64,000 bases of DNA from Ferrimonas kyonanensis DSM 18153 (GTDB lineage: Bacteria > Pseudomonadota > Gammaproteobacteria > Enterobacterales > Shewanellaceae), in the NCBI RefSeq assembly GCF_000425405.1, contig NZ_AUDJ01000016.1, positions 124,001 through 188,000 on the forward strand, in the 5' to 3' direction. Shown here one piece after another: positions 4,552 to 13,942 of the stretch (positions within the stretch are counted from its first letter, which is position 1; every line of letters starts with the position of its first letter). The notes beneath the pieces were generated by a model. The model made no database searches, was not told the DNA's origin, and was given only the letters and a program-made list of their open reading frames with translations. The position numbers and the translations under genes are program-made.

Positions 4552-5115
4552 ATGACGGCGACCACCCTTAACCCCCTGAGCCATGCGGACGTTTCGCCGG
4601 CCGTCAACCTTGAACAGCCGCCGAAAAAATTGCTGCCCTGGTTGCAGGACAAGGGATCGTTGACCCTGAAACTGAAGGCGTTGTGCCGCAACTTCGAGGT
4701 GGAATTGCTGCAGGAGGGGGTGTTGCCGGCGGCCCAGCCCGGACCGGGTTGGGCGTTGGGGCAGCCGATCTGGCAGCGGGAAGTGCTGCTGAAGTTGGAT
4801 GGTGTGGCCTGGGTGTACGCCAATACCGAGGTTCCGATGAGCACGCTGGATGCCTCGGAGATCGATTTCGCCTCCCTGGGGCGTCAGCCTCTGGGAGAGC
4901 GGCTGTTTGCGGCTTCAAACCTGGTTCGGGGGCCGCTCAAGGTCTGTCATTATGGCGATAACAGTACTGCGGTCTGGCAGGCCCGCAGGCTGGGTTTTCA
5001 GGCCCAAGAAGGGCTGTGGGGACGACAGCGGGAGTTTGAGTTGCAGCATCGCTGTCTGCGGATCAGTGAGGTATTTCTGCCTTCATCTTATTCGACGCTA
5101 CTTAAAACATGCTGA
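4552..5115 (+). CDS. ubiC: Chorismate--pyruvate lyase UbiC
   Basis: Converts chorismate to 4-hydroxybenzoate and pyruvate, the first committed step of ubiquinone synthesis. The ATG at 4552 is preceded by CAGGAG and gives 187 residues, slightly longer than the E. coli enzyme (165) because of an N-terminal extension. Recognisable family segments are LTLKLKALCRNFEVELLQEG, WVYANTEVP and REFELQHRCLRISEVFLP near the C-terminus. The frame also opens earlier, at 4414, but without a binding site. The usual partner ubiA does not follow; the next gene belongs to the copper island. Confidence 0.88.
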   Translation: MTATTLNPLSHADVSPAVNLEQPPKKLLPWLQDKGSLTLKLKALCRNFEVELLQEGVLPAAQPGPGWALGQPIWQREVLLKLDGVAWVYANTEVPMSTLDASEIDFASLGRQPLGERLFAASNLVRGPLKVCHYGDNSTAVWQARRLGFQAQEGLWGRQREFELQHRCLRISEVFLPSSYSTLLKTC

Positions 5116-5140
5116 TTTTTAATCCATTACAATCGGTTGA

Positions 5141-5156
5141 ACTGTGAAGTACGACT
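5141..5156 (+). promoter_or_regulatory. Shared 16-bp motif, copy 1 (upstream of 5216 gene)
   Basis: ACTGTGAAGTACGACT lies 60 bases upstream of the first copper-island gene. A near copy with 14 of 16 identical bases, ACTATGAAGTACGGCT, lies at 6943-6958 upstream of the cusB-like gene. A shared regulator is inferred; the regulator is unknown. Confidence 0.4.
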
Positions 5157-5171
5157 CATTCTCTTTGCCGC

Positions 5172-5183
5172 TGTTGCGCAACA
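5172..5183. promoter_or_regulatory. 12-bp perfect palindrome upstream of the 5216 gene
   Basis: TGTTGCGCAACA is self-complementary and is followed at once by a possible -10 element, TATAAC (5185-5190). It sits 33 bases upstream of the start codon at 5216, in position to be an operator. No regulator is assigned. Confidence 0.35.
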
Positions 5184-5215
5184 ATATAACCACTTTCTAA
5201 TGTAATGAGTGTCCG

Positions 5216-5575
5216 ATGCCCCGCCTGACTGTGGTTCTGATGGTGTTTCTGTCCTTGGCCCTGATGATTCAGGGCTCGGTGGCACAGATCCATCTGGCGC
5301 CCAAGACCGAGGCCATCAGTCACCACTCGGCCGTGCTCGGAGAGTCGGCGCCGTCCCAGTCTTCTTGCTGTCAGCCATCAACGCCTCCCTGTCATGATCA
5401 TAACCATCCCTGTCAGGGGGAGTGTGGTCAGTGCCAGATTCTGGTGGCCCCTTCCGGTATTCTGGGGTCGATGGTGAGTATGCTGTTGACCACCGTCGGC
5501 GGCACCCCGATGCATGTCCCGGCGCATTTTGCCTCTGTGGTTCAGGAGCAGGCCCTGCGTCCTCCCATTGGTTAG
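5216..5575 (+). CDS. Small secreted Cys/His-rich protein, DUF2946-like (copper island)
   Basis: A 119-residue protein with a clear signal peptide (MPRLTVVLMVFLSLALMIQGSVA) and a Cys/His-rich middle: SCCQPSTPPCHDHNHPCQGECGQCQ. It ends in RPPIG. The arrangement of signal peptide, short Cys-rich cluster, hydrophobic stretch and terminal PP resembles the DUF2946 family often found beside copper genes; this assignment is by pattern only. Three further proteins of the same plan lie at 6466, 12707 and 13598. It is likely periplasmic and metal-binding. The gene is the first of the plus-strand island. The ATG has only a weak binding site. Confidence 0.65.
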   Translation: MPRLTVVLMVFLSLALMIQGSVAQIHLAPKTEAISHHSAVLGESAPSQSSCCQPSTPPCHDHNHPCQGECGQCQILVAPSGILGSMVSMLLTTVGGTPMHVPAHFASVVQEQALRPPIG

Positions 5576-5638
5576 CTGCGGTTGATATCAAGGCCTTTGG
5601 CCATTTCACAATTTGCTGACTAATTTTGGAGAGTTAAA

Positions 5639-6352
5639 ATGAAAAATCTGTTTACTGCCCTGGCGCTGATGGCCGCGATGATGCTGTCTCCGCTGACTCT
5701 GGCCCATTCTGATGGTCATGGCCATGGTGCCATGACCCATAGCGCAGAGGCGGTGTATGCTTGCCCGATGCATCCCAAGGTGCAAGGCCAGCAGGGCGAC
5801 GAATGCCCCAAGTGCGGCATGAAGTTGCAGGCGATGGCACAGCACCACAAGGGTTGCGATAAGGCCAACTGCCCCAAGCACCAGGGGATGCAGCAGCACC
5901 ACAAGGATTGCGATAAGGCCAATTGCCCCAAGCACCAGGGGATGCAGCAGCACCACAAGGATTGCGACCAGGCCAACTGCCCCAAGCACCAGGGAATGCA
6001 GCAGCACCACAAGGGTTGCGATAAGGTCAACTGCCCTAAGCACCAAGGAATGCAGCAGCACCACAAGGATTGCGATAAGGCCAACTGTCCTAAGCACCAG
6101 GGAATGCAGCACCACCAGGGCCACTACACCCACGCCTGTCCGATGAACCCTAAGGTGGTCGGTATGGCCGGTGACAGTTGCCCGGTGTGTGGTATGGATC
6201 TGGAGCCTGTGGCCAAAGCCGATCGTAAGGCTTACACCCACGCCTGCCCGATGAATCCGGCCATTCGTGGCTTTGCAGGCGACAGTTGCCCGAAATGCGG
6301 CATGGATCTGGAGCCTATGGCCTCGGCGACTTCCGGCCATCAGCACCATTGA
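5639..6352 (+). CDS. Secreted multi-repeat heavy-metal-binding protein
   Basis: A 237-residue exported protein (signal peptide about 1-22). It carries three heavy-metal-binding-domain motifs of the form Y-x-CPMxP...CPxCGM at about residues 40-63, 161-187 and 195-221. Between the first and second lie five tandem 18-residue repeats (residues 68-157), each of the form HHKxCDxxNCPKHQGMQ. Each repeat offers two Cys, three His and one Met, so the protein could bind many soft metal ions; Cu(I) or Ag(I) is inferred from the cus genes downstream. The N-terminus is also His-rich (HSDGHGHG) and the C-terminus ends HQHH. GGAGAG precedes the ATG. I know no named protein with this repeat. Confidence 0.8.
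   Translation: MKNLFTALALMAAMMLSPLTLAHSDGHGHGAMTHSAEAVYACPMHPKVQGQQGDECPKCGMKLQAMAQHHKGCDKANCPKHQGMQQHHKDCDKANCPKHQGMQQHHKDCDQANCPKHQGMQQHHKGCDKVNCPKHQGMQQHHKDCDKANCPKHQGMQHHQGHYTHACPMNPKVVGMAGDSCPVCGMDLEPVAKADRKAYTHACPMNPAIRGFAGDSCPKCGMDLEPMASATSGHQHH
5840..6109 (+). repeat. Five tandem 54-bp repeats inside the metal-binding protein gene
   Basis: Copies begin at 5840, 5894, 5948, 6002 and 6056, all in frame and nearly identical in DNA. The few differences (GGT/GAT, AAC/AAT, CAG/AAG, GCC/GTC) are mostly single bases. The low divergence suggests recent expansion, possibly with length variation between strains. Confidence 0.95.
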
Positions 6353-6362
6353 TGAGGCCGTC

Positions 6363-6395
6363 TTATTGGCGCCTCGAGCTCGCTGGCGCCAATAA
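6363..6395. terminator. Strong 11-bp stem-loop between metal-binding protein genes
   Basis: TTATTGGCGCC (6363-6373) is exactly complementary to GGCGCCAATAA (6385-6395), with an 11-base loop that itself contains CGAGCTCG. There is no T-run, so termination is uncertain; an RNA-stabilising structure is equally possible. It begins 11 bases after the stop of the repeat protein and ends just before a candidate MerR-type promoter. Confidence 0.5.
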
Positions 6396-6397
6396 AG

Positions 6398-6428
6398 TTG
6401 AACTATTGGATGGGAAATCGTTCATAAT
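6398..6428 (+). promoter_or_regulatory. Candidate MerR/CueR-type promoter with 19-bp spacer
   Basis: TTGAAC (6398-6403) and CATAAT (6423-6428) are 19 bases apart, the over-long spacing typical of promoters activated by MerR-family regulators. The spacer region carries a dyad: GAACTATT (6400-6407) against AATCGTTC (6416-6423), 7 of 8 positions complementary. A CueR-like regulator is encoded at 11780. The sequence does not match the E. coli CueR operator. Confidence 0.5.
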
Positions 6429-6465
6429 GGTGATCCTGGCTGTGGCCTGTTAACTGGAATTCGAT

Positions 6466-6855
6466 GTGCACTCATTGCTGAGAATCTTGAGTATGGTGGT
6501 GTTGTCTCTGGCGCTTTTGAGCCAGGGGGCAGTGGCGCGCATGCCGATGATGCCGATGGTGGATGTCGATAACTCCGCCATGATGGCAGCCATGGATTGC
6601 CACGGCAGTGCCGAGATGACCCAGAAGCAGATGGCGGACGACGGTGATTGCTGCTGTGACCACGATGCAGAGCCGGGCAGCGTTATGAGCTGTCAGGGCG
6701 GTTGCAGCCAATGCCAGGATTGCTCACCCGGGTCTTCCTCTCTGATTGCGGCGCTGTGGACCAGTGCCGGCCCTCAGCCTCTGGAACCCCATTTCTACTT
6801 TGTCTCCTTTGACTCCGTCTACCTGGAGTCCGATGAACGACCTCCCATCGTTTAG
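6466..6855 (+). CDS. Small secreted Cys/Met-rich protein, DUF2946-like (copper island)
   Basis: A 129-residue protein with a signal peptide (HSLLRILSMVVLSLALLSQGAVA), then a Met-rich stretch (RMPMMPMVDVDNSAMMAAMDCHG) and a Cys cluster (DCCCDHDAEPG and SCQGGCSQCQDC). It ends in ERPPIV. It is paralogous in plan to the protein at 5216: both have CQG(E/G)C(G/S)QCQ. The start is GTG at 6466; an ATG two bases earlier is in another frame and stops after five codons. It lies downstream of the candidate MerR-type promoter and upstream of the cusB-like gene. A periplasmic copper-binding role is inferred. Confidence 0.65.
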   Translation: MHSLLRILSMVVLSLALLSQGAVARMPMMPMVDVDNSAMMAAMDCHGSAEMTQKQMADDGDCCCDHDAEPGSVMSCQGGCSQCQDCSPGSSSLIAALWTSAGPQPLEPHFYFVSFDSVYLESDERPPIV

Positions 6856-6888
6856 ATCTTCATAGCAATACGACGACTTTGACGTAGC

Positions 6889-6908
6889 GGGTGCCGTGAC
6901 TGGCACCC
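6889..6908. other. 7-bp stem-loop between 6466 gene and cusB-like gene
   Basis: GGGTGCC (6889-6895) pairs with GGCACCC (6902-6908) around a six-base loop. Only a short T-stretch follows (CATTTAAG), so it is at best a weak terminator. Together with the motif at 6943 it suggests the cusB-like gene may have its own promoter. Confidence 0.35.
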
Positions 6909-6942
6909 CATTTAAGCAGCTTCGATTGCATTCGATGTTGTG

Positions 6943-6958
6943 ACTATGAAGTACGGCT
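6943..6958 (+). promoter_or_regulatory. Shared 16-bp motif, copy 2 (upstream of cusB-like gene)
   Basis: ACTATGAAGTACGGCT matches the element at 5141-5156 in 14 of 16 bases and ends 36 bases before the cusB-like start. See the first copy for interpretation. Confidence 0.4.
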
Positions 6959-6994
6959 GACGGCCATGATCCGGCAGCCGAAGGAGAATCCACT

Positions 6995-8632
6995 ATGATT
7001 CGCACCCAATACCGCCACTGGGTCTACCCGGTGCTGGCCCTGTTTCTGCTGATGCCCGCCCTTACGGCTGTGGTGCACGCCGAGTCTCATGATCATGGGG
7101 CAGTGGCGGCGCAAGCCGGTGTCTATGCCTGCCCGATGCACCCGCAGGAGACCGGGCACAAGGGCGATCGCTGCCCCAAGTGCAACATGTTCCTGACCAA
7201 GGTAGAGGCAGAGTATGCCTGCCCGATGCACCCGCAGGAGACTGGGCACAAGGGCGATCGCTGCCCCAAGTGCAACATGTTCCTGACTAAAGAAGAGGCA
7301 GAGTATGCCTGCCCGATGCACCCGCAGGAGACTGGGCACAAGGGCGATCGTTGCCCCATCTGCAACATGTTTCTGGTCGCAGAAGAGGAGGAAGAGGCAA
7401 CCGAACATCAAGGCCATGACCACTCGGCCATGGATAAGGGCTCACAACCATTGGCCTCGCCGGCGACGGCTGCGCCAACGTTGATTCCCGTCGATTCCGG
7501 TCCACAAGGACAGGTGAAATACGTCTGCCCAATGCATCCGCACATAGTGTCCGATGAACCCGGTACCTGCCCCATCTGTGGCATGAACCTGGAGAAGGTG
7601 GACCTGGGTGGCAGTACCGAAGAGGTGGTGGTCGGGGTGCCCGGCGGCATGCAGCAGGCGCTGGGCATGCGGGTACAGACCATCGAGCAGGGGACCTTGT
7701 GGCGGTACATCAATACCATCGGCACGGTCGAATACGATCAAGACGCCATCAGCCACGTCCACGCCCGGGTGTCCGGCTGGATTGAGAAGCTGGGGGTGGC
7801 ATCCGCCGGAGATGAGGTGAAACAGGGGGAGTTGCTGTTTGAGCTGTACAGCCCGGATTTGGTCAGTGCCCAGGACGACTTTTTGCTGGCGCTGGATACC
7901 CTGAAGCGGGATAAGCGCCGCGGCGGTGAACTGATTCGAAAGGCCCGTTTGCGACTGGAGTTGCTCGGCATGGATTCGGCCCTGATTCAGGCGTTGGAGC
8001 GCAGTGGCCAGACCCTGTATCGGGTTCCCTTCTACGCCCAGCACGACGGGGTCATCAGCGAGCTTAACGTCCGCGATGGTATGTACATTCAGCCCTCAAC
8101 CGAGGTGCTCAAACTGGTGGACTTAAACCGGGTCTGGGTGATTGCCGAGGTGTTTGAAAACCAGCAGGGCTGGTTCCGTCAGGGGCAGGCGGCCGCAGTC
8201 ACGGCTTCGGCGCTGGGGCTGTTTGAGCTGGATGGCAACATCGACTACATCTATCCGGAATTGGATCCGGTGACTCGGGCCATGCAGGTACGGGTAGCGC
8301 TGGCCAATCCGGAAGGCAAGCTGAAGCCCGGCTCCTTGGTGGACGTGGAGCTGTATGGTACCGCCAAGCGGAATTTGACTCTGGTCCCCACCGAGGCGCT
8401 GATTCAGACGGGTCGCAATAACCGGGTCGTGGTGCAGCAGAGCGACACCGAGTTTGTGGTCAAAGAGGTGCAGCTGGGAATGATTGCCAAGGGAATGGCT
8501 GAGGTGTTGTCCGGTGTGACTCCCGGTAATCGGGTGGTGGTGTCCGGGCAGTTTTTGCTGGACTCAGAGGCCAGCCTTAAAGGCAGTCTGATGCGCATGA
8601 GCAACGGCGCATCTGCCGGCCACAATCACTAG
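6995..8632 (+). CDS. cusB: CusB-like RND efflux periplasmic adaptor with four N-terminal metal-binding domains
   Basis: Periplasmic membrane-fusion subunit that links the CusA pump to an outer-membrane channel. Of its 545 residues, about 1-29 form a signal peptide. Residues 44-133 are three near-identical 30-residue heavy-metal-binding units (YACPMHPQETGHKGDRCPKC and variant), followed by an acidic, His-containing linker. A fourth unit, YVCPMHPHIVSDEPGTCPICGM, starts near residue 176. The remainder is a typical CusB/HlyD body with HVHARVSGWIEKL and the two lipoyl halves. Many CusB proteins have one such N-terminal domain; four is unusual. GAAGGAGAA precedes the ATG. It heads the cusB-cusA-cueR transcription unit. 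Confidence 0.9.
   Translation: MIRTQYRHWVYPVLALFLLMPALTAVVHAESHDHGAVAAQAGVYACPMHPQETGHKGDRCPKCNMFLTKVEAEYACPMHPQETGHKGDRCPKCNMFLTKEEAEYACPMHPQETGHKGDRCPICNMFLVAEEEEEATEHQGHDHSAMDKGSQPLASPATAAPTLIPVDSGPQGQVKYVCPMHPHIVSDEPGTCPICGMNLEKVDLGGSTEEVVVGVPGGMQQALGMRVQTIEQGTLWRYINTIGTVEYDQDAISHVHARVSGWIEKLGVASAGDEVKQGELLFELYSPDLVSAQDDFLLALDTLKRDKRRGGELIRKARLRLELLGMDSALIQALERSGQTLYRVPFYAQHDGVISELNVRDGMYIQPSTEVLKLVDLNRVWVIAEVFENQQGWFRQGQAAAVTASALGLFELDGNIDYIYPELDPVTRAMQVRVALANPEGKLKPGSLVDVELYGTAKRNLTLVPTEALIQTGRNNRVVVQQSDTEFVVKEVQLGMIAKGMAEVLSGVTPGNRVVVSGQFLLDSEASLKGSLMRMSNGASAGHNH
7124..7393 (+). repeat. Three tandem 90-bp repeats in the cusB-like gene
   Basis: Copies start at 7124, 7214 and 7304 and each encodes one 30-residue metal-binding unit. 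The first two are almost identical in DNA; the third diverges at its end (CPIC instead of CPKC, then an acidic tail). They are in frame. Confidence 0.93.
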
Positions 8633-8640
8633 GGGGCGGC

Positions 8641-11600
8641 ATGTTAGAAAAAATCATTGAAGCCTCCATTCGCCAGCGGATTATGGTGCTGGTGATCATG
8701 GCGGTGATTGCCCTAGTGGGCTGGCAGGCGCTGCGCAGCACCCCGTTGGATGCCTTGCCAGACCTGTCTGATGTGCAGGTCATCGTCAAGACCTCCTATC
8801 CGGGGCAGGCACCGCAACTGGTCGAGGACCAGATCACCTACCCATTGTCGTCGGCCATGCTGGCGGTGCCCGGGGCCAAAACCGTCCGTGGCTATTCCTT
8901 TTTCGGCGACTCTTATGTGTACGTCATCTTCGAGGATGGCACCGACATCTACTGGGCCCGGTCACGGGTTTTGGAGTACCTGTCTCAGGTTCAGGGGCAG
9001 TTGCCGGCCAGTGCCAAGCCAGAGTTGGGGCCCGACGCGTCCGGTGTGGGCTGGGTGTTTGAGTATGCGCTGGTGGACCGCAGTGGCAAACACGATTTGG
9101 CCCAGCTCCGTAGCCTGCAGGACTGGTACCTGAAGCTGGAGCTGCAGAGTGTGGCCGGCGTGTCTGAAGTCGCCACCATTGGCGGCATGGAGCAGAGCTA
9201 CCAGGTGGTGGTGGATCCCCATAAACTGGCGCTGTACAAGCTGGATATTGGTCGAGTGAAGATGGCCATCGACAAGGCCAATGCCGAGGTGGGTGGCTCG
9301 GTGATCGAGATGGCCGAAGCCGAGTACATGATTCGTGCCAAAGGTTACCGCCAGAATCTGCAGGATTTTGCCGATATTCCGGTGGGCATTGTGTCGGAAT
9401 CCGGCAACCCGGTACTGCTCAAAGACGTGGCGGTATTGCGGGTTGGCCCCGCATCCCGGCGCGGTATTGCCGAGCTGGACGGCGAAGGCGAGGTGGTGGG
9501 CGGCATCATCGTGATGCGCTATGGGGAAAACGCCCTGGCCACCATTGAAGCGGTAAAACAGAAGCTTGAGCAACTCAAGCCCGGTTTGCCGGACGGCGTG
9601 GAGGTGGTGACCACCTATGATCGATCCCAGTTGATTCTGGGTTCCGTGCAGAACCTGACCCACAAGGTGATCGAAGAGATGCTGGTGGTGGGGCTGGTGT
9701 GTCTGTTGTTTCTGCTGCACGCCCGCTCGACGCTGGTGGCGGTGATCACTCTGCCGCTGTCGATCCTGATCAGCTTTATTGTGATGGGGTTCATGGGGGT
9801 GAATGCCAACATCATGAGCCTGGGCGGCATTGCCATTGCCATCGGGGCGGTGGTGGATGCGGCCATTGTGATGGTGGAGAATGCCCACAAACACCTGGAG
9901 CACTACCGTGCCGACCATGGCCATGAGCCGCAGGGCGAGACCCGTTGGCAACTGATGAAAGAGGCCTCGGTGGAGGTGGGACCGGCGTTGTTCTTTAGCC
10001 TGCTGATCATTACGTTGAGCTTTATGCCGGTGTTTGTGCTGGAGGCGCAGGAGGGGCGACTGTTCCATCCGCTGGCCTACACCAAGACCTTTGCCATGGC
10101 GGCCTCGGCACTGCTGGCCATTACCCTGATCCCGGTACTGATGGGGTATTTCATTCGCGGGCGCATCCCCGACGAGCGTAAAAATCCCATCAGCCGAGTG
10201 CTGATTGCCTTGTACCAGCCGGCGTTGAAGCTGGTGCTGCGTTTTCCGCGTCTGACTCTGGTGTTGGCGTTAGTGGCCCTGTTCAGTGCCTGGTATCCGC
10301 TGAGTCAGTTGGGCTCGGAGTTTATGCCTGAGCTGGAGGAGGGCGATCTGTTGTACATGCCGACCACCCTGCCCGGCGTCAGTGCCGGCAAGGCGGCGGA
10401 GTTGTTGCAGCAGACCGACCGGCTGATTAAGACCGTGCCCGAAGTGAAACGGGTGTTCGGCAAGGTTGGCCGCGCCGAGACGGCCACCGATCCGGCGCCG
10501 CTGACCATGCTGGAAACCACCATCATGCTGAACCCCAGAGAGGAGTGGCGCGACGGCATGACGCTGGAGGGGATCATCGATGAACTGCAGCGAACGGTGA
10601 AAGTACCCGGGGTGACCAATGCCTGGGTGCAACCCATCAAGACTCGCATCGACATGTTGTCCACCGGCATCAAAACCCCCATCGGCATTAAAATCTCCGG
10701 CGCCGATGTGGACGAACTGCAGCGAATAGGCGGTGAAGTTGAGGCGATGTTGAGTCAATTGCCTGGAACGGTATCGGCGTTTGCCGAGCGGGTTGGCGGT
10801 GGTCGTTACATCGACATTGAGCCCAAGCTGGCGGTGGCCGCCCGCTATGGCATTACCCTGGAGGACGTGCAGAACGTGGTCCGAATGGCCATTGGCGGCA
10901 TGCAGATTGGCGAATCGGTGCAGGGGGCCGAGCGTTACCCCATTAACCTGCGTTACCCCCGTGAGCTTCGTGACGACATCAACAAGCTCAGGGAGCTGCC
11001 GGTGGTGACCTCCAGCGGTCACTACATTCCGCTGTCAACGGTGGCCAGCATCAGCATCAGCGACGGCGCCCCGATGCTCAAGAGTGAAAACGGCCGCCTG
11101 ATCTCCTGGGTGTTTGTCGACATCAAGGGCACCTCCATCGGTGAATACATCGATGAAGCCCGCACTTTGCTGGACAGCCGTTTGCAGCTGCCTCCCCGCT
11201 ACAGCATCAGTTTTGCCGGTCAGTATGAGTACATGCAAAGGGTGGAAGCCAAGATGGTGCAAGTGGTGCCGATGACCCTGGCGGTGATCTTCCTGCTGCT
11301 GATGATGACCTTTGGTTCGACGCTTCAGGCCAGCATCATCATGCTCAGTCTGCCGTTTGCTCTGGTGGGCTCGGCCTGGTTGTTGTATCTGCTGGAGTTC
11401 AATCTGTCGGTGGCGGTGGCGGTGGGAATGATTGCCCTGGCCGGTGTGGCGGCAGAGTTTGGGGTGGTGATGCTGGTGTATCTGAACAACGCCATCAAGG
11501 CCCGGCAACGTGCGGATCGGTATCGACAGGAGTCGGACCTGAAGGCGGCGTTGCTGGAGGGGGCGGTGATGCGCATTCGTCCCAAGGCGATGACGGTGGC

Positions 11601-11775
11601 CACCATCTTCTTTGGTTTGCTGCCGATCATGTGGGGGGCCGGCTCTGGCAATGAAGTGATGCAGAAGATTGCCGCGCCTATGGTGGGGGGGATGGTCACG
11701 GCACCTTTGTTATCGCTGTTTGTGATTCCCGCCATCTATCTGCTGGTCTACCGTCGCCAACTGGACAGGGAGTAA
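8641..11775 (+). CDS. cusA: CusA-type Cu(I)/Ag(I) RND efflux pump
   Basis: Inner-membrane proton-driven pump of 1044 residues, the normal length for heavy-metal RND transporters. The three methionines that bind Cu(I)/Ag(I) in E. coli CusA are present at the same numbers: Met573 (DLLYMP), Met623 (APLTML) and Met672 (RIDMLSTG). Other family segments are DALPDLSDVQVIV at the N-terminus, GGIAIAIGAVVDAAIVMVENAHK in the membrane relay region and GVAAEFGVVMLVYL near the C-terminus. It starts 8 bases after the cusB-like gene. No cusC or cusF follows, so the outer-membrane channel must be encoded elsewhere. Confidence 0.95.
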   Translation: MLEKIIEASIRQRIMVLVIMAVIALVGWQALRSTPLDALPDLSDVQVIVKTSYPGQAPQLVEDQITYPLSSAMLAVPGAKTVRGYSFFGDSYVYVIFEDGTDIYWARSRVLEYLSQVQGQLPASAKPELGPDASGVGWVFEYALVDRSGKHDLAQLRSLQDWYLKLELQSVAGVSEVATIGGMEQSYQVVVDPHKLALYKLDIGRVKMAIDKANAEVGGSVIEMAEAEYMIRAKGYRQNLQDFADIPVGIVSESGNPVLLKDVAVLRVGPASRRGIAELDGEGEVVGGIIVMRYGENALATIEAVKQKLEQLKPGLPDGVEVVTTYDRSQLILGSVQNLTHKVIEEMLVVGLVCLLFLLHARSTLVAVITLPLSILISFIVMGFMGVNANIMSLGGIAIAIGAVVDAAIVMVENAHKHLEHYRADHGHEPQGETRWQLMKEASVEVGPALFFSLLIITLSFMPVFVLEAQEGRLFHPLAYTKTFAMAASALLAITLIPVLMGYFIRGRIPDERKNPISRVLIALYQPALKLVLRFPRLTLVLALVALFSAWYPLSQLGSEFMPELEEGDLLYMPTTLPGVSAGKAAELLQQTDRLIKTVPEVKRVFGKVGRAETATDPAPLTMLETTIMLNPREEWRDGMTLEGIIDELQRTVKVPGVTNAWVQPIKTRIDMLSTGIKTPIGIKISGADVDELQRIGGEVEAMLSQLPGTVSAFAERVGGGRYIDIEPKLAVAARYGITLEDVQNVVRMAIGGMQIGESVQGAERYPINLRYPRELRDDINKLRELPVVTSSGHYIPLSTVASISISDGAPMLKSENGRLISWVFVDIKGTSIGEYIDEARTLLDSRLQLPPRYSISFAGQYEYMQRVEAKMVQVVPMTLAVIFLLLMMTFGSTLQASIIMLSLPFALVGSAWLLYLLEFNLSVAVAVGMIALAGVAAEFGVVMLVYLNNAIKARQRADRYRQESDLKAALLEGAVMRIRPKAMTVATIFFGLLPIMWGAGSGNEVMQKIAAPMVGGMVTAPLLSLFVIPAIYLLVYRRQLDRE

Positions 11776-11779
11776 GAGG

Positions 11780-12169
11780 ATGAAGATTGGTCAGGTAGCC
11801 CGGGAAACCGGGCTCAGCGTAAAAACCATCCGTTACTATCACGACATTAAGTTGGTCGAAGCCCGTCGGGGTGATAATGGCTACCGTGAGTACCAACAGT
11901 CGCAGTTGGCTCAGTTACAGTTCGTGGCCCGTTGTAAGGCTCTGGGGTTCAGCCTGGAGCAATGCGCTCAGTTGTTGTCATTGAATGCCAGCGAGGATCG
12001 CACTGCGGCGGCGGTGAAATCCGTCGCCACCGAGCAGTTGCTGGTGGTGCAGGATAAGGTGCGCCAGTTGCAGCAACTGGAGCGGCAGCTATCGACCTTG
12101 GTCAATGCCTGCGACGGCAGTGACCGTCCTCAATGCGCCATTCTGGACTCCCTCAACGGCGGATCATAA
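11780..12169 (+). CDS. cueR: CueR-like MerR-family copper-responsive regulator
   Basis: A 129-residue MerR-family activator. The N-terminal helix-turn-helix (MKIGQVARETGLSVKTIRYYHDIKLVEARR) is followed by the dimerisation helix and a C-terminal metal loop, NACDGSDRPQC, with Cys111 and Cys119 in the CueR spacing (Cys-x7-Cys). Counting back from the first cysteine, the position equivalent to CueR Ser77 appears to be alanine (DRTAAAVK), an unusual change. It starts 4 bases after cusA with an AGAGG site and so is co-transcribed with the pump it probably regulates. Cu(I)/Ag(I) sensing is inferred. Confidence 0.85.
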   Translation: MKIGQVARETGLSVKTIRYYHDIKLVEARRGDNGYREYQQSQLAQLQFVARCKALGFSLEQCAQLLSLNASEDRTAAAVKSVATEQLLVVQDKVRQLQQLERQLSTLVNACDGSDRPQCAILDSLNGGS

Positions 12170-12182
12170 TCGGGTGAAATAG

Positions 12183-12211
12183 AAAAAAACCGGCCTCCTG
12201 GCCGGTTTTTT
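12183..12211. terminator. Bidirectional terminator between cueR and DUF2057 gene
   Basis: CCGGCC (12190-12195) and GGCCGG (12200-12205) form a stem flanked by an A-run on the left and six T on the right, so it can act for cueR on plus and for the DUF2057 gene on minus. Confidence 0.9.
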
Positions 12212-12242
12212 ATTGAGGGACAGCCACGTTCAGTGGCAGTGG

Positions 12243-12665
12243 TTATCCCTCGTCTTTCGCCAGGAGTCGGGCCATCTGCGCCATTAACTGGGTTTCAGTG
12301 AGCTGACGGGCAGGGTGTGGGGTCTTGCCCTCGAGCAGGGTAAACGTCGGTTCATCGATAAAGGCGCGAATCGCTTTGGAGTTGTTCAGCTCCGGTAACC
12401 GAACTCGGTAGTCGCCTTCCCCGGCAATGAAGCTGAGAAATACCGGGGTGGATCTGAGCAGTTCGTGCTCTTCTGGAGTGACCGTCAGCAGCTCGGTGTA
12501 GCTCAGCTGGATCACCTGCGTGCCCGGTTTCAGGGTTACTGGTTGGTCGTTGCGGGGGGCGGCGTTGCCGTTTATCGACAGCAGACTGACGCCGTCCGGC
12601 AGAGGCAGTGTCGCGGCCTCAAGACCAGGCGCGGACAGGATTAGGGCGAACAGAAGCGCTCTCAT
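12243..12665 (-). CDS. DUF2057 (YccT-like) exported protein, copy 1
   Basis: A 140-residue protein with a signal peptide (about 1-17, ending GLEA). The body is the DUF2057/UPF0319 fold by pattern: LPLPDGVSLLSINGNAAPRNDQPVTLKPGTQVIQLSY, then ...PVFLSFIAGEGDYRVRLPEL. In E. coli a member (YccT/CsgI) restrains curli formation, but the general function is not settled. A second copy lies at 13127-13552 on the same strand. It follows, on minus, the Cys-rich small gene 12707-13048, so the two DUF2057 genes alternate with two Cys-rich genes. Confidence 0.75.
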   Translation of the reverse strand: MRALLFALILSAPGLEAATLPLPDGVSLLSINGNAAPRNDQPVTLKPGTQVIQLSYTELLTVTPEEHELLRSTPVFLSFIAGEGDYRVRLPELNNSKAIRAFIDEPTFTLLEGKTPHPARQLTETQLMAQMARLLAKDEG

Positions 12666-12706: not shown

Positions 12707-13048
12707 TCAGGAGTATGCTTTGGGAGGTTTGGTGGCCGGTGCCACACTGAGGCCGTTGATGAGCAACAATTGAGAAAAGGGACGGTGTTCGCTGGCGGTC
12801 AGCGTCAATGCGTAGCTGACTGGCAGGCTGATGCACAAGTGGGCGGAGAAACACTGACTGGCGCATTGCTGGCATTGAACTGGATCGGACGACAGATCTG
12901 GGTGATGCCGCTGCATCTCCAGTACCTGCATTACCACAGGGTCACTGTGGCTGACCTTGTCTATGGCCGGATTGATCTGTACCACCAACAGCAGCAGTAT
13001 CATCAGTACCGTTAGTCGGGGATGGCGTGGTGAGCGCATTGCATTCAT
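12707..13048 (-). CDS. Small secreted Cys-rich protein, DUF2946-like
   Basis: A 113-residue protein with an N-terminal hydrophobic export segment (LTVLMILLLLVVQINPA), a Cys cluster (QCQQCASQCFSAHLCISLP) and a tail ending KPPKAYS. It shares the plan of the proteins at 5216, 6466 and 13598 (export signal, short Cys cluster, terminal PP) though the sequence is divergent. Periplasmic metal binding is inferred from the plan and from the adjoining copper genes. It lies 41 bases upstream (on minus) of the DUF2057 gene 12243-12665, so the two are probably co-transcribed. Confidence 0.6.
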   Translation of the reverse strand: MNAMRSPRHPRLTVLMILLLLVVQINPAIDKVSHSDPVVMQVLEMQRHHPDLSSDPVQCQQCASQCFSAHLCISLPVSYALTLTASEHRPFSQLLLINGLSVAPATKPPKAYS

Positions 13049-13126: not shown

Positions 13127-13552
13127 TTAGCGGTCCAGTGTGTGGCGGGCCATAAGTACCAACAGCTGGCTCTGGGTCAACAGTCGGTTTTCCACCGGTC
13201 CGGCATCACTGCGCAAGGTGACCTTGGGCTGGCGGGCAAACTGGCGTACGGCTTGCTCGTCTTCAAGAATCGGCAGCAACAACTGATAGCGTTCGCTGCC
13301 GTCGCCCTCGAAGCTGAGGTACAGCGGCGCCGAGGTAATCATCTCGTGATCCTCCGCATTCAGTTGCAACAGCTCACCGTACTTGAGTTCCACGACCTGG
13401 GGACCGTCGGTCAGTGATAGTTGGCTGGCAAACTGGGATACCGGTTTACCATTGAGGCTGACGGCCCATACCGACGAAGGCAGTGACAGGGTGGCGGCGG
13501 AAGTCGAAAAGGCACTGGCGGCGATGACGATCGCAGATAAAAACGTCTTCAT
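13127..13552 (-). CDS. DUF2057 (YccT-like) exported protein, copy 2
   Basis: A 141-residue paralogue of the protein at 12243, with signal peptide MKTFLSAIVIAASAFSTSA and the same order of motifs: LSLPSSVWAVSLNGKPV, GPQVVELKYGELLQLN, SAPLYLSFEGDGSERYQLLLP, and a C-terminal QSQLLVLMA. The two copies share clear pattern identity, so they arose by duplication. It lies 45 bases downstream on minus of the Cys-rich gene 13598-13942, repeating the Cys-rich/DUF2057 pair seen at 12243-13048. The gene ends in its own terminator. Function unknown. Confidence 0.75.
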   Translation of the reverse strand: MKTFLSAIVIAASAFSTSAATLSLPSSVWAVSLNGKPVSQFASQLSLTDGPQVVELKYGELLQLNAEDHEMITSAPLYLSFEGDGSERYQLLLPILEDEQAVRQFARQPKVTLRSDAGPVENRLLTQSQLLVLMARHTLDR

Positions 13553-13597: not shown

Positions 13598-13942
13598 TCA
13601 GTAAACCCGGGCCGGAGGTCGCAGGGGGTGGCTGAGTGGAACCCAATAGTCGCCGGGGGCAACCAAAAAGGGGTGAATGCTCCCCATCGCTGCAACTGCC
13701 TGAGGACCGACAGACACCACGGCCATCAGGGAATTCATTGGGCAAATGCCGACGCAGCACAGGCAGCGTTCGGGGCACTCGCTTTGATGAGGATTGGCGC
13801 AGTCCATCACCACGGATTCTCCGGCCATGGCAGGCATTCCATGGCCGGTAACCGGGGCGGCCGACATAGGCAGGCTGACGGTCAGGAGTAGCGCCAGTAC
13901 CCAGCCCAGTCGACGTAGCAGATGGGGAGCATTCGTTGTCAT
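13598..13942 (-). CDS. Small secreted Cys-rich protein, DUF2946-like
   Basis: A 114-residue protein with an export signal (LGWVLALLLTVSLPMSAAPV), a His/Met patch (GHGMPAMAGESVVMDC), a Cys cluster (SECPERCLCCVGICPMN) and a tail LRPPARVY. It is the fourth member of the small secreted Cys-rich set in the island. It is the first gene of a minus-strand unit with DUF2057 copy 2. Copper binding is inferred from context and ligands, not shown. Confidence 0.6.
   Translation of the reverse strand: MTTNAPHLLRRLGWVLALLLTVSLPMSAAPVTGHGMPAMAGESVVMDCANPHQSECPERCLCCVGICPMNSLMAVVSVGPQAVAAMGSIHPFLVAPGDYWVPLSHPLRPPARVY

Follow-up and report, generated by a model that had tools for sequence, protein, structure and literature searches.

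Close counterparts of the protein studied here belong to the SilE/PcoE group, i.e., ligand-rich periplasmic proteins that are tied to Cus/Sil-type efflux and for which a hand-over of metal to the pump has been proposed (PMC5008109). A second point of reference is the heavy-metal-binding domain (HMBD) of LpCopA (8OVL), in whose NMR structure Ag+ is held by M44, C59 and M61; its authors describe a resemblance to the N-terminal domain of SilB, and the domain is reported to bind Hg and perhaps Zn as well (PMC11970713). CusF (PF11604) serves as periplasmic Cu(I) donor to CusB. Bacterial metallothioneins such as SmtA and MymT are small, cytosolic and far richer in Cys than the protein described below, with cysteines making up about 20–30% of a metallothionein. 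On the regulatory side, CutF of R. capsulatus is an exported peptide that has a CxxxC motif and, at its C-terminus, a proline motif. When copper is present, it permits translation of cutO by opening a stem over the cutO Shine-Dalgarno (SD) sequence; CopL and CruR are treated alongside it, and such open reading frames (ORFs) have been reported upstream of Cus genes (PMC9973294).

The locus described here lies in the genome of a marine Ferrimonas bacterium, within a 64-kb stretch of DNA analyzed as a whole (the window), and its parts resemble these known ones. Its central gene encodes what is likely a periplasmic Cu/Ag buffer composed of HMBDs and an expandable Cys/His cassette, hereafter called the repeat protein. 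While SilE carries His/Met motifs, the repeat protein has Cys-x4-Cys repeats and three HMBDs. The latter share the conserved Met-Cys-Met ligands with LpCopA and the SilB N-terminus, but here they form a separate small protein in which they are spaced by a fast-changing Cys/His cassette. A role as periplasmic Cu(I) donor to CusB may be shared with CusF, although PF11604 is absent from the Pfam matches of the repeat protein up to E = 1. The original prediction had called the protein a bacterial analogue of metallothionein, which holds loosely as a description of function, given Cys/His sites apparently meant for soft metals, but not as family membership: The mature protein, of about 215 residues, contains 19 Cys, and no metallothionein family is found among the Pfam/NCBIfam matches. 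These matches include no SilE/PcoE family either, the presence of such a profile in the libraries being unconfirmed. A literature search covering few subscription papers returned no account of the repeat protein or its combination of parts, and the sole paper found that joins Ferrimonas, copper and CusA makes no mention of the protein in its available part (PMC3548706).

The repeat gene and its operon

The repeat gene is part of an array of genes on the forward strand that runs from a chorismate lyase gene (4414) over leader ORF 1, the repeat gene itself, leader ORF 2, cusB and cusA to a CueR-like gene (Table 1).

Table 1. Features of the repeat gene and its operon in the window.
Feature	Position	Strand	Details
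Leader ORF 1, CutF/CopL-like	5216..5575	+	119 aa; Sec-like N-terminus (by eye), CQGEC, C-terminal RPPIG
Predicted anti-Shine-Dalgarno CTCC	5562..5565	+	within the Pro-Pro codons of leader ORF 1; computed folding
Shine-Dalgarno GGAG of repeat gene	5628..5631	+	predicted paired, P unpaired 0.04
Repeat protein gene	5639..6352	+	237 aa + stop
Sec-like N-terminus of repeat protein	residues 1 to about 22		judged by eye
HMBD 1 core, CPMHP..CPKCGM	5762..5821	+	residues 42-61
Tandem array in repeat gene	5840..6117	+	period 54 bp, 5.1 copies
HMBD 2 core, CPMNP..CPVCGM	6137..6196	+	residues 167-186
HMBD 3 core, CPMNP..CPKCGM	6245..6304	+	residues 203-222
Leader ORF 2, CutF/CopL-like, before cusB	6466..6855	+	129 aa; CQGGC, C-terminal RPPIV
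CusB-like RND adaptor	6995..8632	+	4 N-terminal HMBD
Tandem array of HMBD units in cusB	7124..7375	+	90-bp units; covers first three HMBD
CusA-like Cu/Ag RND pump	8641..11775	+	Met triad M573/M623/M672 conserved
CueR-like MerR regulator	11780..12169	+	CX7C metal loop

Five in-frame 54-bp repeats with two Cys, three His and one Met each had been predicted, and Tandem Repeats Finder, translation and codon shuffling all confirm them. The array (92% matches, score 465) is one of two reported in the window, the other being located in cusB. Its units start at 5840, 5894, 5948, 6002 and 6056 and translate as QHHK[DG]CD[KQ][AV]NCPKHQGMQ with the full set of ligands in 5/5 cases, and self-identity at period 54 is 0.93 over 216 bp, compared with a maximum of 0.44 in 1000 codon shuffles. 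The three CPMxP...CGM motifs between which the repeats were said to lie are indeed HMBDs (PF19335, 73.9 bits against a curated cut-off of 23.6, in three stretches), but one of them precedes the array and two follow it. The N-terminus, a Lys followed by a hydrophobic stretch, reads as a Sec signal, so that the protein would be exported to the periplasm via Sec, and the C-terminal tail is His-rich. An antisense ORF over the same stretch (5606..6349 on the reverse strand, 247 aa) was rejected as coding on account of the Pfam domains and low dN/dS on the forward strand and is probably a by-product of codon usage.

The copper setting of the gene, also part of the original prediction, is supported by the genes downstream. 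The pump falls in the CusA/CzcA subfamily, and its residues 1–1038 match E. coli CusA structures, with the Met triad kept in 14/14 Ferrimonas genomes. The CueR-like protein scores 135.6 bits, below the NCBIfam CueR cut-off of 147.4, and keeps its CX7C loop; a cueR-like match lies within the fetched stretch around the locus in 9/14 genomes. The number of HMBDs in CusB ranges from 2 to 5 across Ferrimonas, and no cusC-like outer-membrane gene was seen among the operon genes. What did not stand was the notion of a copper island or mobile element: The GC content of the operon equals that of the whole window (0.590 vs 0.591) and chorismate lyase is found upstream of the locus in 13/14 Ferrimonas genomes, and the locus therefore appears inherited rather than acquired.

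A regex and dyad scan revealed no CueR-type box upstream of leader ORF 1 in the window. Across the 13/14 loci covered by the dyad scan (G010 was left out), dyads are present upstream of leader ORF 1 in G002, G003, G004, G007, G011 and G013, and those of G002, G003, G004 and G011 look like terminators. The scan for promoter-like sites was uninformative, since 2 were observed as compared with 3.6 in shuffles, and Rfam gave no match above the gathering score over 4900..12400. Separately, a TGTGAA..CTCATTCTC block upstream of leader ORF 1 (5143–5163) is common to G000, G009, G005, G012 and G008, which are five close relatives.

Metal ligands and the route to the pump

The three ligand positions known from LpCopA are kept without exception: Met-Cys-Met is found in 42/42 HMBDs of the 14 Ferrimonas orthologues and in 50/50 HMBDs of CusB proteins, in a search that required CP and the leading Cys of CxxC but imposed no residue at the ligand positions, and from which matches to repeat units were excluded. 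The DPM..FMDM stretch of E. coli CusB aligns with the fourth and last HMBD of the window CusB, and we take its three Met to be M21, M36 and M38 by allowing for a 28-residue precursor offset. These are the residues reported as ligands of E. coli CusB (PMC6235853), and the Met triad of CusA binds Cu(I) (PMC8092243). Judged from its ligands, the repeat protein would thus bind metal, and its cysteines might form disulfides in the oxidizing periplasm.

An AlphaFold2 (AF2) model built from 14 sequences is of moderate confidence (mean pLDDT 70, pTM 0.31). It places the HMBD blocks at pLDDT 79–95 and renders the repeats as short helices at 52–76, and the top PDB match of the model in Foldseek is the HMBD structure 8OVL, albeit with an E value of 0.57 that is not significant (probability 0.87).

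The original prediction of a Cu(I)/Ag(I) sponge in the periplasm remains the best-supported reading, and a likely one, by inference from operon context, HMBD ligands, the Met triad of CusA and selection on the repeat units (see below). We would go further and, with some confidence, regard the repeat protein as a buffer-chaperone that handles Cu(I)/Ag(I) in the periplasm for the CusBA pump and whose synthesis is probably gated by copper in translation. Each of its three HMBDs would hold a single soft metal ion by way of its Met-Cys-Met ligands, while the tandem Cys-x4-Cys/His/Met units would contribute thiolate and imidazole sites, so that we propose the number of repeats to set the capacity. 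Metal would then pass to the four like HMBDs at the CusB N-terminus and on to the CusA Met triad. The protein may thereby replace CusF, which has no match (PF11604) in 13/14 Ferrimonas genomes, the single match lying on a separate contig of G009. However, the absence of CusF need not be filled by the repeat protein, since CueP, another periplasmic copper protein, has been reported in Ferrimonas (PMC3548706). If the proposal is correct, the repeat protein is a possible CusF substitute made from the pump's own acceptor domain.

The strongest rival is a pure storage and detoxification sponge that takes up periplasmic metal without any hand-over to CusB. Such a protein would have the high ligand density and freely varying repeat number observed here, and SilE provides a precedent (PMC5008109), but the gene lies directly upstream of cusB in 14/14 genomes, the HMBD is common to both proteins and CusF goes unmatched in nearly all of these genomes, though CueP may be present, which makes this explanation unlikely in our view. 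Even less probable is a broad thiol scavenger of heavy metals (Hg, Cd, Zn) instead of a Cu/Ag protein, because it fits poorly with a CusA/CzcA-subfamily pump that has kept the Met triad of CusA, with a CueR-like regulator and with flanking ORFs of the CopL/CutF kind, even if Cys-x4-Cys units and an HMBD of rubredoxin-knuckle type could bind divalent metals (PMC11970713).

Turnover of the Cys/His cassette

A match to the repeat protein at E <= 1e-10 was found in 14/14 Ferrimonas genomes including that of the window, and the orthologue is directly upstream of cusB-cusA in all of them, with leader ORF 2 intervening in 6/14; these and all other counts across the genus are non-independent in that relatives share ancestry. 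Three HMBDs are present in 12/14 orthologues, two in G001 and four in G013. The cassette in between is far more variable. QHHK-DCDKANCPKHQGM units number five in the window and three in F. sediminum, whereas three relatives, among them F. futtsuensis and F. sediminicola, have two or three HAKHDCDKANCPNK units and one shorter KHDCANCPK. A different unit, CPHxGK..GCCGQAKG..CPHA, is present as a single copy in four genomes but as four copies in F. marina. In G001, G006 and G010, the cassette is replaced by short Cys stretches without repetition, and the orthologue of G013 has zero Cys outside its HMBDs, so that the repeats are dispensable. Despite this turnover, C+H+M account for 24–29% of the mature protein in 14/14 orthologues. 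The CusA tree separates the clade of the window from F. marina, so two independent expansions of units are likely. Copy number of the repeat, for which the original prediction had proposed variation between strains, thus differs between species (5, 3 or 0), and orthologues with 0, 3 or 5 units or with a different unit would, if our reading is correct, form a series for testing buffer capacity against repeat number.

In the genomes searched, matches to the repeat itself stayed within the genus. In the family, 4/152 genomes matched, all of them Ferrimonas, with the other 10 Ferrimonas genomes remaining without a match. In 295 genomes of the order and 398 of the phylum, the repeat profile A1 matched that of the window alone; two Ferrimonas members are among the genomes listed, and the other one, G006, has no A1 match. 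A search of plasmids for the repeat gave no match. A search for homologues returned 26 loci (7 Ferrimonas, 19 others), the others being related through the HMBD as far as inspected. With a whole-protein profile (A3) and E <= 1e-15, 18/295 order genomes gave a match, among them two Ferrimonas genomes, and several of these matches are CusB proteins themselves. Related proteins are nevertheless present in a sister genus: Of the ten A3 loci from outside Ferrimonas, 7 encode a small HMBD protein positioned between CusB and a CutF-like ORF, and in the other three (L086, L091 and L092) a CutF-like ORF immediately precedes CusB.

Within genomes, the units have evolved under constraint: Their dN/dS is 0.07 in the window, 0.13 in G009, 0.09 in G005 and 0.06 in G012, i.e., 0.06–0.13 in 4/5 genomes, where numbers are small and where the search pattern required C...NC, making these residues invariant by construction and leaving only Pro free. 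The fifth value, 0.42 in G008, comes from a single pair. Synonymous divergence (pS) among units is lower within the window (0.37) and within G009 (0.51) than between the two (0.84), so that the copies arose or were homogenized after their split; for G005 and G012, the values within (0.53 and 0.30) and between (0.47) give no clear signal of homogenization. That the repeats are merely linkers produced by neutral slippage, with the HMBDs alone being functional, is suggested by the repeat-free orthologue of G013 and by the different repeat types of different clades, but seems highly doubtful given the low dN/dS in four genomes, the expansion of a different Cys/His unit in F. marina and the Cys-containing linkers or tails (NCDxCP and similar) in 5/7 small HMBD proteins of the sister genus.

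Leader ORFs and translation of the repeat gene

The repeat gene is flanked by two ORFs that the original prediction did not include. Like CutF, CopL and CruR, they combine CxxxC with a terminal Pro-Pro, and their start looks Sec-like by eye. Both have CxxxC plus Pro-Pro at most 15 residues from the C-terminus, the features by which we define CutF-like ORFs after the literature (PMC9973294). Their scores against the CopL family NF033807 (19.7 bits for leader ORF 1, 27.1 for leader ORF 2) are both under its cut-off of 40. A mechanical rule (60–150 aa, CxxxC, Pro-Pro within 15 residues of the end) is passed by 11/233 ORFs of the window, so this rule alone is weak and conservation carries the case; several of the leader ORFs exceed 150 aa when counted from the first in-frame start. 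A CutF-like ORF precedes the repeat gene in 14/14 Ferrimonas genomes at a gap of 55–129 nt, and a second one precedes cusB in 6/14. The leader ORFs flanking the repeat gene probably control it.

Pairing of the SD with the leader end, through which a stem might hide the SD as it does for cutO, was computed for 18/20 leaders (the two of G001, in which no SD was recognized, were excluded), and the statistics are mixed. Upon shuffling of the upstream sequence, the mean probability that the SD pairs with the leader end was 0.68 as compared with 0.10 in shuffles over the 18 leaders. For the 13 repeat-gene leaders it was 0.35–1.00 compared with 0.08–0.15 in shuffles, and the pairing test reached p <= 0.05 in 10/13 of these and in 0/5 cusB leaders, with a zone (-15..+8) that was picked after the stricter accessibility test had been seen. 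When the Pro-Pro codons were kept fixed, computed SD accessibility was below shuffles in 14/18 leaders (p <= 0.05 in 4/13 repeat-gene leaders and 0/5 cusB leaders); in G002, G003, G007 and G011 the SD is no less accessible than in shuffles. The predicted anti-SD is formed by the Pro-Pro codons themselves in some leaders and immediately follows the leader stop codon in G004, G005, G008 and G012.

Since the predicted partner of the GGAG lies at the leader end, a stalled ribosome could free the SD. The nascent CutF-like chain would bind copper via CxxxC and slow the ribosome at the terminal Pro-Pro codons, which would uncover the SD of the repeat gene that is otherwise paired with the end of the leader ORF. 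Synthesis of the repeat protein would then probably be gated by copper in translation via the leader peptide. Compared with CutF, CopL and CruR, this arrangement differs in having two leaders per operon, each before its own cistron, and in the anti-SD that in some leaders is predicted to coincide with the Pro-Pro codons. As a tentative synthesis, the system could be a thiol-based metal store in the periplasm. Its capacity would change as tandem Cys/His units are gained or lost on an HMBD frame, and its translation would start in response to a copper-sensing nascent leader peptide, the Pro-Pro stall codons of which would double as anti-SD. If this is true, nascent peptides would sense copper here in a compact setting that comprises two leader ORFs within the operon and two more adjacent to it. 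Of all parts of the proposal, translational gating by CutF-like leaders most merits a test.

Some minor observations concern the same region. An element GACGACTTTGAC (6872–6883) follows the stop codon of the CutF-like ORF before cusB and is found in the cusB or the repeat-gene leader in 10/14 genomes, often with an adjoining hairpin; the genome of the window has one copy of it, compared with 14 for a reversed control pattern. Two more CutF-like ORFs with CxxxC and Pro-Pro near the C-terminus lie on the reverse strand at 13598..13942 and 12707..13048, and each directly precedes a DUF2057 ORF (13127..13552 and 12243..12665, respectively). DUF2057 may have a link to copper. For the second DUF2057 gene, the SD (AGGAGTA) has its complement, TACTCCT, where the preceding ORF ends, and similar CutF-like ORFs are located beyond cueR in G005, G008, G009 and G012, where relatives of DUF2057 are present, too.
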